Part shown: positions 23,048 to 45,551 of the stretch, piece after piece
Position numbering within the stretch: position 1 is the first letter of the stretch
How the letters are laid out: each line of letters starts with the position of its first letter
DNA from: Erysipelothrix aquatica
GTDB lineage: Bacteria > Bacillota_I > Bacilli_A > Erysipelotrichales > Erysipelotrichaceae
Direction of reading: 5' to 3'
Assembly: GCF_009828775.2 (NCBI RefSeq)
Contig: NZ_WTSY02000016.1
Span: 1 to 47,379, forward strand
Length of the DNA: 47,379 nt
Program-made: the position numbers and the translations under genes
The notes under the pieces: model-generated
The model's database searches: none
Told to the model about the DNA's origin: nothing
Seen by the model: the letters and a program-made list of their open reading frames with translations, nothing else

Positions 23048-23057
23048 CTACATATAG

Positions 23058-23072
23058 TGATAATCATTATCA
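23058..23072. promoter_or_regulatory. Fur box (7-1-7)
   Basis: TGATAATCATTATCA is an exact match to the Bacillus-type Fur consensus TGATAATNATTATCA and differs from the PerR (TTATAATNATTATAA) form. Its place just after the predicted transcription start fits repression by iron-loaded Fur or a paralogue. Confidence 0.85.
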
Positions 23073-23099
23073 ATATCAATTATGAGAGAAGGTAGATGT

Positions 23100-24932
23100 A
23101 TGAATTATATTAAAGAATTTTGGGATACGATTACATGTGGAATACTCCTAGTACTAGGATTCGTAACCAACAGTCCTGTATTTTTTGTGTTAGCGATTGT
23201 AATCGGGGGATACAAACAAACACTTGAAGGGATTCAAGATACACTAGAAAATAAACATTTAAACGTTGAACTGTTGATGATTTTATCCGCATTAGGGGCC
23301 TGCTTGATCGGTTATTACTCCGAAGGTGCGGTACTGATTTTTATTTTTGCGGTATCGGGTGCTCTTGAAGCAATGACATTGGATCAGAGCAAACGTGAAA
23401 TCAATTCGCTAATGGCGATGCAACCAGAAACGGCGCAACAATTACTCGAAGATGGAAGTACACGTACGGTTCAAGTAGAAACGCTTAAAATTGGCGATAA
23501 AGTCATTGTTGCTCGTGGTGCAGGTGTGCCGATTGATGGAAAAATTGTAAGCGGAGAAACCGCACTCGAAGAAGCGGCGATTACAGGAGAATCAGTTCCT
23601 CGTAATAAAACAGTTGGAGATCGTGTATTCGGTGGAACATTGAATGTGTCGAGTCCAATTACGATTGAAGTCGACGAAGAACCAGGGAATACAATGCTTC
23701 AGAAAATCGTTAAAATGGTTGATGATGCGCAAAATTATCCGTCAAAAACAGCTCGTTTCATTGATAAAATTGAAAGTTATTATGCTGCAGGGGTTTTAGT
23801 GGTTGTTGCATTGTTTATTGCAATTCCGACATTGTTGATGAATGTGCCGTTTGAAGCTGCCTTTTATCGAGGCATGATTTTACTCGTCGTTGCTTCACCA
23901 TGTGCATTGATTGCCTCGGTCACACCAGCAACCCTTGCTGCAATCTCAAATGGTGCAAAACATGGTATTTTAGTTAAGGGAGGTATTCATTTCGAAAATC
24001 TCATGGACTTAAAAGCGATTGCTTTTGATAAGACTGGAACGTTAACAGAAGGCGAAATGCGCGTCACAGATGTTCATCTAAACGATGAAATGTTACGTGG
24101 CATCGTCGTTGCGTTAGAGCGTCATTCGACCCACCCACTTGCACAAGCTATCGTCAAAGAAATGCATACAGGCGCTGTTGATGTACAGGATATTGAGGAA
24201 CTTCCAGGTTTTGGAGTTCGCGGATCATTTCAGGGCAAACAGTACAAAGTTGGGCGTAATGAATCGACAGAACCTCTTAACGAAACAATGACTGCTTTAG
24301 AAGCCGCTTGGATGGCGGAAGGGAAAACGTTAGTCTATATTCAAGAAGGAACAACAATTGTTGGTATTATCGGATTAATAGATACTTTGCGTCCAGATGC
24401 AATCGCATTAATTTCTTGGTTGAACGCACAAAATATTCAAACCGTCATGATTACCGGTGATAACCAAGAAACTGCAAACAAGATAGCAGAAGCGGTAGGA
24501 GTCCAACGTGTTATAGCGCGAACACTTCCAAACCAAAAAGCAGATATTATCAATGCTTTAATTGAGGAATATGGTGATGTTGCGATGGTTGGTGATGGGA
24601 TTAATGATGCGCCAGCTCTTGCGAATGCAACGATTGGAATTGCGATGGGTGGTGGAACTGACATTGCGATTGAGGCTGCAGATATCATTCTTGTTCACAA
24701 TAACATCGAGAACATTCGCTACGCATATACCTTGTCACAACGACTCCGTCGTATTGTTATTCAAAATATTGTTTTCTCGTTTAGTGTGATATTACTGCTT
24801 GTGTCAGCTAACTTTATGGGCGATATTTCATTGCCGCTTGGCGTCGTTGGGCACGAAGGAAGCACAATCCTTGTTATCCTTAACAGCTTGCGTTTGTTGA
24901 AACCATTAATGATGAAAGATACTGTAAAATAG
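23100..24932 (+). CDS. P1B-4 type metal-exporting ATPase
   Basis: A 610-residue heavy-metal P-type ATPase. It lacks an N-terminal metal-binding domain and carries TGES (about 162-165), the metal motif SPC (about 266-268), DKTGT with the phosphorylated Asp (about 310), HP in HSTHPLAQ, GDGINDAPAL and, in the last span, HEGST (about 585). SPC plus HEG(G/S)T is the P1B-4 signature, whose members export Fe2+, Co2+ or haem-related iron (PfeT, FrvA, CtpD). The Fur box in front supports iron. ATG at 23100 has GAGAAGG; an earlier in-frame ATG at 23082 lacks a site. Monocistronic, with a terminator over its stop. Confidence 0.93.
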   Translation: MNYIKEFWDTITCGILLVLGFVTNSPVFFVLAIVIGGYKQTLEGIQDTLENKHLNVELLMILSALGACLIGYYSEGAVLIFIFAVSGALEAMTLDQSKREINSLMAMQPETAQQLLEDGSTRTVQVETLKIGDKVIVARGAGVPIDGKIVSGETALEEAAITGESVPRNKTVGDRVFGGTLNVSSPITIEVDEEPGNTMLQKIVKMVDDAQNYPSKTARFIDKIESYYAAGVLVVVALFIAIPTLLMNVPFEAAFYRGMILLVVASPCALIASVTPATLAAISNGAKHGILVKGGIHFENLMDLKAIAFDKTGTLTEGEMRVTDVHLNDEMLRGIVVALERHSTHPLAQAIVKEMHTGAVDVQDIEELPGFGVRGSFQGKQYKVGRNESTEPLNETMTALEAAWMAEGKTLVYIQEGTTIVGIIGLIDTLRPDAIALISWLNAQNIQTVMITGDNQETANKIAEAVGVQRVIARTLPNQKADIINALIEEYGDVAMVGDGINDAPALANATIGIAMGGGTDIAIEAADIILVHNNIENIRYAYTLSQRLRRIVIQNIVFSFSVILLLVSANFMGDISLPLGVVGHEGSTILVILNSLRLLKPLMMKDTVK

Positions 24933-27770: not shown

Positions 27771-27799
27771 TTGACAATCAATAGTTGTGTTCATATACT
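27771..27799 (+). promoter_or_regulatory. Promoter of the purine permease
   Basis: Consensus -35 TTGACA (27771-27776), 17-base spacer, -10 TATACT (27794-27799). Confidence 0.8.
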
Positions 27800-27814
27800 G
27801 TAAGTGTATTAATT

Positions 27815-27890
27815 AGCCGAATTTAATACCCGAAATATGGTCGGGTAGTCTCTACCGATACACCGTAAATGTATCGACAATCGTGGTGAA
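27815..27890 (+). promoter_or_regulatory. Purine riboswitch, guanine type
   Basis: P2 is CCCGA (27829-27833) / TCGGG (27841-27845) with loop AATATGG. J2/3 ends TCTCTACC, P3 is GATAC/GTATC with loop ACCGTAAAT, and J3/1 is GACAAT. The loops pair as in the xpt aptamer. The base at the specificity position (74 in xpt) is C, which selects guanine or hypoxanthine rather than adenine. Positions 21 and 75 are a compensatory U-A instead of A-U. Confidence 0.92.
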
Positions 27891-27897
27891 AACTCTC

Positions 27898-27923
27898 AAG
27901 ATCGTTTTCTCCCGATCTTTTTT
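27898..27923 (+). terminator. Riboswitch expression-platform terminator
   Basis: Seven-base stem AAGATCG/CGATCTT with an 8-base loop and T6 tail, between the aptamer and the permease gene. Purine binding should favour this terminator. Confidence 0.85.
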
Positions 27924-44117: not shown

Positions 44118-44147
44118 AAAAGAGTTCACCATTGGTGAACTCTTTTT
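44118..44147. terminator. Bidirectional terminator
   Basis: Twelve-base stem AAAGAGTTCACC/GGTGAACTCTTT with a 3-base loop and T-runs, between the HAD gene and mutY. Confidence 0.9.
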
Positions 44148-45132
44148 ATAATATCTTCTGATTTTGTAGAATCTTGCGATGAGCCGTCACGAGAGGATAG
44201 GTATCTACGATTTCTTGAAGTGGCACAAAGAACCAATTGTGATCTCCAATGTCTAACGTATCAACAAGATAAGCTTCAATATTCCAATGTAAATGAGAAA
44301 ACTTATGGACAAGTGTTGTGGTAGGTTCCAAATCTTGGTGACCATCAACCTGTGGTAAACGGAAGAGGCCTTCCATTAAACCATCATCATGCTCATTCGA
44401 AATAAGCAATTTTCCATCTTTAACGAGGATAAAGACTGATTTATCATACGCTTTCACAGGCTTACTTTTGGGAATAAATGGGACTTGCCCAACGACTTCA
44501 CCACGCCAACAAGCACACATTTCCTCAAATGGACACCCTTCGCAGGTTATGTTGCTAGGAGTACATACAAGGGCACCTAACTCCATTAATGCTTGATTAA
44601 ATTCGTTAGGATCCGCACCATCCTTAATGAGCTCTTCTTTAAGGAACGCATCAAAGACCTTATGGGCTGCACGCGCATTCACGTTCTCGGTATAATTAAG
44701 ATATCGTGCCATTACACGCTTAACGTTGCCGTCAATCACTATTTCTGGCAAGCTAAAAGCAATTGAAGCAATCGCACTTGAAGTGTAGTCACCAATGCCA
44801 GGAATGCTCATTAGGGCCTGTTTATCTGCGGGTAGAACACCATCAAAATGTTCCACAACAAACTGTGCACCTGCATGTAAGTTACGGGCACGACGATAAT
44901 AACCCAATCCCTCCCACATTTTGAGGATTTCATCAATATCAGCTGCTGCTAAATCTTGAACAGTAGGATACTTGGCAACCCATTTTTCATAGTAAGGGAG
45001 CATCGTTGCAATTTGTGTTTGTTGAGCCATGATTTCACTGACCCAAATTTTATAGGGATCACGCTCACGACGAAACGGTAAGTCTCGTTTATTCGCGCGA
45101 TACCATGTTATTAATCTGTCTGTAAATGTCAT
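44146..45132 (-). CDS. mutY: A/G-specific adenine glycosylase
   Basis: A 328-residue DNA repair enzyme that removes adenine opposite 8-oxoguanine. Seen: LPFRRERDPYKIWVSEIMAQQTQ with the catalytic Glu, the helix-hairpin-helix SIPGIGDYTSSAIASIAF with the catalytic Asp, a four-cysteine iron-sulfur site C-x6-C-x2-C-x5-C (CTPSNITCEGCPFEEMC), and the C-terminal NUDIX-like domain with FSHLHW. The ATG at 45132 matches family starts. A -10 box TATACT ends six bases before it, so the transcript may be almost leaderless; otherwise the start has no clear site. Confidence 0.95.
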   Translation of the reverse strand: MTFTDRLITWYRANKRDLPFRRERDPYKIWVSEIMAQQTQIATMLPYYEKWVAKYPTVQDLAAADIDEILKMWEGLGYYRRARNLHAGAQFVVEHFDGVLPADKQALMSIPGIGDYTSSAIASIAFSLPEIVIDGNVKRVMARYLNYTENVNARAAHKVFDAFLKEELIKDGADPNEFNQALMELGALVCTPSNITCEGCPFEEMCACWRGEVVGQVPFIPKSKPVKAYDKSVFILVKDGKLLISNEHDDGLMEGLFRLPQVDGHQDLEPTTTLVHKFSHLHWNIEAYLVDTLDIGDHNWFFVPLQEIVDTYPLVTAHRKILQNQKIL

Positions 45133-45138
45133 GCGTAT

Positions 45139-45144
45139 AGTATA
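45139..45144 (-). promoter_or_regulatory. -10 box six bases before mutY start
   Basis: TATACT on the minus strand at the distance that would start the transcript at the A of ATG. The -35 is poor. Confidence 0.4.
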
Positions 45145-45176
45145 GCCCATATTTTTGACTTTGGGTATTTGAACGC

Positions 45177-45209
45177 AAAAAAAGAAATGGACGGGAACCC
45201 ATTTCTTTT
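45177..45209 (-). terminator. Terminator of the candidate small RNA
   Basis: Eleven-base stem AAAAGAAATGG/CCATTTCTTTT, 8-base loop and T7 on the minus strand. Confidence 0.85.
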
Positions 45210-45323
45210 AAGAGAGATAGTGCGTAACATCGTAGTGTGTTCTTCATAAGTGGTTAAGAAGGAAATTATGAAGCCATCTACGACGGATGCAGTAACAACT
45301 TATCTATTATTTGAAGTTGTTAC
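45177..45323 (-). ncRNA. Candidate small RNA or mutY leader
   Basis: A minus-strand unit with its own promoter and terminator but no reading frame. It folds as: an 11-base perfect stem (45291-45301 with 45314-45324); a two-part stem, TCGTAG/CTACGA (45230-45235, 45278-45283) enclosing CTTCATAA/TTATGAAG (45242-45249, 45266-45273); and an 11-base terminator stem with T7. The middle loop holds TTTCCTTCTTAACC and the terminator loop GTTCCCGT, C-rich single strands that could pair with Shine-Dalgarno sites. It matches no RNA family I know. It could also act as a leader that attenuates mutY, 45 bases downstream. Confidence 0.5.
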
Positions 45324-45327
45324 TAAC

Positions 45328-45356
45328 ATAATACCTTTTTGAAAATGAAAAATCAA
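45328..45356 (-). promoter_or_regulatory. Promoter of the candidate small RNA
   Basis: On the minus strand -35 TTGATT (45351-45356), 17-base spacer, -10 TATTAT (45328-45333). The predicted start (about 45321-45323) is at the foot of the first hairpin. Confidence 0.65.
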
Positions 45357-45551
45357 CCAATTACCACCGATAACATTATGTGTAATTTTGGTATTTCGTC
45401 ATATTGTAAAGATAATGTGAAGAAACCTAACAAAGCGCCAGAAGTTCTTGAAAAGATGGTGAACTCTTGAAAAAACCAGTACTTATTCGATTGCTGGGGG
45501 TTAGAATTCAACGACGATTATGATACGATTGTTAAGAAGAGGTAATGATAA
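45357..45551 (+). other. Upstream region of the deacetylase gene
   Basis: No gene seen. A loose inverted repeat AATTAC/GTAATT (45359-45364, 45382-45387) lies next to the small RNA promoter. No convincing promoter for the deacetylase gene was found. Confidence 0.4.

Follow-up and report, generated by a model that had tools for sequence, protein, structure and literature searches.

The gap that separates mutY from a divergent polysaccharide deacetylase gene on the plus strand of Erysipelothrix aquatica raises the question of whether it holds an RNA gene in its own right and, if so, how such an RNA would act. A preliminary description of this DNA had proposed that a structured minus-strand RNA acts in trans through loops complementary to Shine-Dalgarno (SD) sequences or, alternatively, serves as an attenuating leader of mutY. 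Comparative analysis of the window (the whole stretch of 47,379 nucleotides analysed here) and of related genomes leaves little doubt that the gap encodes a member of an uncatalogued small RNA family, which is confined to Erysipelothrix in the samples searched. The family probably consists of a genus-wide, independently transcribed regulatory RNA of about 150 nt that acts in trans by base pairing at SD sites. Its trans action by base pairing is what we infer; its promoter, stems, terminator and unchanging segments emerge from comparative sequence analysis. Erysipelothrix is the genus that causes swine and poultry erysipelas, and a single-copy RNA present in nearly all of its sampled species offers a natural entry to post-transcriptional control in a little-studied branch of the Bacillota.

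Conservation of the RNA within Erysipelothrix

A DNA search of 60 related genomes recovered the same block in nine congeners at 70-90% identity, and an alignment of ten species was used to build a covariance model. With this model, the RNA was found in 12 of the 13 Erysipelothrix genomes sampled. Each carrier holds one copy, aside from a weak antisense match that mirrors the palindromic first stem; in the remaining genome (G001), the RNA is absent and mutY is present. Two of the carriers, G008 and G011, lay outside the model set and were found blind at E values of 3e-7 and 1e-4. Both matches sit directly upstream of mutY, in genomes whose MutY proteins are only 62-65% identical to that of the window, and their position provides independent confirmation of the RNA family. 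An exact pattern scan of GTDB genomes matched E. tonsillarum, E. anatis, E. inopinata, E. urinaevulpis and Erysipelothrix sp. HDW6A; among the genomes compared, that of E. anatis is the closest to the window genome. Outside the genus, searches of family, order and class samples gave no convincing model match. A match in G031 (E 0.0125) was rejected for lack of both conserved motifs, and a weak match was seen in G270 (E 0.0139). Viral contigs and plasmids contained no match to the RNA.

The changes that separate these homologues tend to preserve pairing. When the species are aligned by sequence only, standard pairs fill 94.7% of the pair cells, 14 cells show double changes compared with 4.8 in shuffles, and the covariation score is 0.220, against 0.150 for shuffles and at most 0.120 for slid structures. 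When all 12 sequences are aligned by fitting to the model, a procedure biased towards the structure, 11 pairs show double changes. The compensatory changes on which the preliminary description had staked its candidate are thus present.

Architecture of the RNA gene

The 147-nt RNA has a minimum-energy fold of -39.7 kcal/mol, compared with -19.25 +/- 3.15 kcal/mol for dinucleotide shuffles (z -6.49), and none of 200 such shuffles is equally stable. The z score is still -5.05 when the terminator is removed, and the same stretch folds less well on the plus strand (z -4.51). Ten homologues tested gave z scores from -5.5 to -9.4, or from -2.8 to -6.7 without the terminator. The upstream half of the gap, at 45330-45551, shows no unusual structure (z 0.04). 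The features of the locus are collected in Table 1.

Table 1. Positions of the small RNA gene, its parts and other annotated features in the window.
Feature	Position	Strand	Remarks
Gap between mutY and deacetylase gene	45151-45551		Holds the small RNA gene on the minus strand
Small RNA gene, ~147 nt	45177..45323	-	Ends placed by the promoter (5') and the terminator (3')
Small RNA promoter	45328..45356	-	-35 TTGATT at 45351-45356; 17-base spacer; -10 TATTAT at 45328-45333
Stem-loop 1, GTAACAACTT...AAGTTGTTAC	45292..45323	-	Sequence nearly constant in ten species
Hairpin 2, coaxial stem of several helices	45221..45291	-	Two main helices covary
Apical loop of hairpin 2, TTTCCTTCTTAACCAC, 16 bases	45250..45265	-	Complementary to SD type GGTTAAGAAGGAA
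Unpaired linker, CACTATCTCTCT	45211..45222	-	Complementary to AGAGAGATA
Intrinsic terminator	45177..45209	-	Stem and loop sequence variable between species, pairing kept
mutY promoter element, separate	45133..45144	-	-10 TATACT at 45139-45144; 6 bases before probable ATG
mutY (A/G-specific adenine glycosylase)	44146..45132	-	Next gene downstream; context, outside the RNA
tmRNA gene, tag GNNSLQFAA	2182-2532	-	Rfam, ARAGORN; ordinary
Purine riboswitch	27799-27901	+	Rfam, ARAGORN; ordinary

The promoter with its 17-base spacing is present as previously described. Taken alone, a match of this kind is at the chance level (12 sites found, 11.0 expected). Among the homologues, the pattern TTGnnn-17-TAT(C/T)AT is kept in 12 of 12, with a spacer of exactly 17 bases. 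The architecture common to the homologues comprises a first stem-loop that carries CAACTT, a second, long hairpin, the unpaired linker CACTATCTCTC and the terminator. The stems and terminator originally proposed reappear in the minimum-energy fold: stem-loop 1 has 10-11 bp and the terminator ends in a T run, but the coaxial stem, again in two parts, comprises 8+2+8 pairs and a 3-bp base instead of 6+8. Because stem-loop 1 hardly varies, covariation is uninformative there and speaks neither for nor against its pairing.

Two unpaired segments remain fixed within this framework. The apical loop TTTCCTTCTTAACCAC is identical in 10 of the 12 homologues while the stem around it changes, for example from CTTCATAA/TTATGAAG to ATATATAA/TTATATAT; G008 and G011 have different C/U-rich stretches in its place (GCUCCUUUC, ACCUCUUC). 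The linker core CACTATCTCTC (45212-45222), an element missed by the preliminary description, is identical in all 12 and constitutes the most conserved unpaired element. Of the two SD-complementary loop motifs singled out earlier, CCTTCTT lies in the conserved apical loop, whereas TTCCC lies in the terminator loop and is not conserved.

A second CTCTCT stretch, which resembles the linker, occurs in an asymmetric bulge of hairpin 2 in G005 (L031), G007 (L034) and G012 (L038). It is lost in the window genome and in G004.

Proposed mode of action and candidate targets

In the proposed mechanism, hairpin 2 would display the loop UUUCCUUCUUAACCAC and the linker CACUAUCUCUCU would stay exposed, both being complementary to SD regions (AAGAAGG, AGAGAGAUA). 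Pairing across the SD of a target mRNA would keep ribosomes from binding and promote decay of the message. A MATE-family efflux transporter, in species having it, would be the first candidate, and the adjacency to mutY would be positional, not regulatory. Of the trans-acting small RNA put forward earlier, the RNA itself is well supported by its own promoter and terminator, its single copy and its covarying stems, which enclose constant pyrimidine-rich segments, and the mechanism is plausible.

Targets were scanned with crude gene calls that were complete for G007 (1832 starts) and covered about 41% of G010. In G007, the highest-ranking target for the loop is a MATE-family transporter, which scores above the cut-off for PF01554 and TIGR00797. 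Taken to begin immediately downstream of a TATAAT box, the 5' UTR of this gene is approximately ATGGTTAAGAAGGAAGGTTATAATG; it is short and largely the complement of the loop. Pairing energies between this UTR and the loop range from -20.2 to -21.5 kcal/mol, the latter value ranking first of 1832 in G007. The candidate match covers 13-15 bp over the SD, has been retained in both the E. rhusiopathiae/tonsillarum group and E. urinaevulpis, and is suggestive only. Across the 13 genomes, GGTTAAGAAGG is found 5-12 bases before the ATG in the MATE orthologues of G002, G005, G007, G009 and the divergent G006; otherwise it turns up only in the small RNA gene and, in G005, once inside a gene. The UTR in G006 shares a 13-base block, ATGGTTAAGAAGG, within otherwise diverged sequence, and a comparison by eye of about nine further orthologous starts gave a longest shared block of 11 bases.

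Close MATE orthologues are present only in G002, G005, G006, G007 and G009, and the window genome has only a distant relative. Since seven of the 12 carriers are without a close orthologue, the transporter cannot explain why the RNA is conserved. Equally strong best targets in G007 were found by 15 of 60 flank-scrambled loops. The cross-species target excess is not significant, with 3 of 40 scrambles matching the loop count and 36 of 40 matching the linker count (G007 complete, G010 about 41%), and the MATE sites represent two lineages. For these reasons, confidence is graded: it is very high for the family, good for an antisense mode of the RNA and tentative for the MATE mRNA, which may be a real target.

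The neighbouring polysaccharide deacetylase gene was considered as a target and rejected, as it offers only a 9-bp match and 337 of the 1832 starts in G007 bind the loop at least as well. For the linker, AGAGAGATAG before a start codon leads to one gene-length frame (in G010 only) and otherwise to short frames. Separately, AGGAGAGGAGA precedes the start of a permease-like gene in both G007 (G007:247470, minus strand) and G006 (L199). In G010 this gene has GGGAGATAG, partly complementary to the RNA linker, and the gene is a possible second target.

Relation to mutY and alternative explanations

In 11 of the 12 carriers, mutY is the next downstream gene on the same strand, as would be expected if the RNA were an attenuating leader that forms the 5' end of the mutY transcript and whose terminator acts as a regulated switch. 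However, each of the 13 genomes, including G001, which has no RNA, has a separate -10 box (TATACT, TATAAT or similar) that lies 6-7 bases ahead of the mutY ATG. This spacing implies that the mutY message begins at a start of its own and has no leader, and mutY thus appears to be leaderless throughout the 13 Erysipelothrix genomes. Comparison of orthologues indicates that mutY in the window probably starts at 45132 and that the longest-frame start at 45150 is wrong. In G003, moreover, the RNA (618125-618279) lies upstream of mutY (615191-616186) on the same strand at a distance of about 2 kb. This distance, the -10 boxes of mutY and the genome without the RNA together argue that the RNA is a unit of its own and that the shared neighbourhood is an inherited position. 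No co-evolving antiterminator is apparent either, since the arms of the terminator vary freely and the loop does not. A leader would always lie in the mutY transcript and would have mutually exclusive terminator and antiterminator structures; the genomes point to neither, and the mutY attenuator of the preliminary description is rejected as very improbable.

The remaining explanations concern the RNA itself. An antisense RNA to an opposite-strand gene, or a structure arisen by chance, would accord with the chance-level promoter match and with an RNA known here from sequence alone, yet the RNA is kept with covariation in 12 species while its upstream neighbour differs: the polysaccharide deacetylase gene is its neighbour in just two genomes, that of the window and G004, and an NlpA lipoprotein gene takes this place in G008. 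Such an origin is close to negligible in probability. It is scarcely more credible that the locus encodes a small protein, either from a plus-strand frame at 45269-45343, where AGAAGGA precedes an ATG in the window, or from a minus-strand frame across the linker, where an RTISL frame is found in several species. The plus-strand frame ends after two codons in other species (ATG AAG TGA/TAA), and the mini-gene was rejected on this ground; G006 and G008 lack the minus-strand frame, G012 has it shifted, and the changes between species preserve pairing, not codons. The earlier statement that the gap has no reading frame needs qualification: there are small frames on the minus strand, although not one of them is shared by every species. 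A protein-binding or sponge RNA, in which the C/U-rich loop and linker would bind a protein or another RNA and not the SD of an mRNA, is unlikely but deserves more weight. Two exactly conserved unpaired segments within stable stems would also fit this role, and the target scans performed no better than scrambled controls. Against it, each RNA has one copy of each motif, whereas sponges typically carry repeats; moreover, the loop extends an anti-SD core, and a 13-15-bp partner is kept in two lineages.

Comparison with known regulatory RNAs

Rfam, including RoxS/RsaE and FsrA where represented, yielded no covariance score above the curated cut-off in the RNA, and the RNA of the window matched no family even at permissive settings. 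Within the literature consulted, in which subscription papers mostly fell outside the scope, no small or regulatory RNA was found described for Erysipelothrix. On comparative grounds, the family is well supported and is probably of a functionally known kind, catalogued nowhere in Rfam.

Trans-acting, C-rich, SD-masking small RNAs of the Bacillota include RoxS/RsaE of the Bacillaceae and Staphylococcaceae, which is not known to need Hfq for most of its functions. The way of working proposed here is the same, without an Rfam match between the two. IsrR of staphylococci has several stem-loops and a poorly conserved terminator, with C-rich regions in a loop and between stems that pair with SD sequences (PMC9410917). 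The Erysipelothrix RNA resembles it in its exposed loop and between-stem regions, its variable terminator and its predicted SD pairing. However, IsrR has C runs and is under Fur iron control, whereas this RNA has CCUUCUUAACC and CUAUCUCUC, and the two match in neither sequence nor structure. FsrA of Bacillus subtilis likewise binds the SD via a C-rich motif (PMC9410917), but its sequence differs, no iron link is known for the present RNA, and Rfam gives no match. The best reading, by analogy, is that the RNA works like RoxS/RsaE, IsrR or FsrA, with no relationship to them implied.

A further resemblance was dismissed as chance. The best sub-threshold score belongs to rli45 (RF01475), a Listeria RNA and antisense partner of rli46, which in G005 matches the strand opposite the promoter and first stem at 39.4 bits. 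No genome reaches the 60-bit cut-off, and the match falls at the RNA gene only in the rhusiopathiae/tonsillarum group, that is, in one clade.

A tblastn search of G007 with two Hfq query sequences found no match, which makes it unlikely that the RNA depends on Hfq. The fullest account of the locus, somewhat less likely than not, is that the RNA represents the founding member of an Erysipelothrix-specific family whose two SD-masking elements would repress a set of mRNAs, including that of the MATE pump, in bacteria for which the search of G007 detected no Hfq.

Elsewhere in the window, a Fur-box-like palindrome, GATAATCATTATC, is located at 23055-23100 on the plus strand, upstream of a reading frame of 610-616 aa. 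Similar Fur-like boxes precede G007:256460 and its counterpart in G010.
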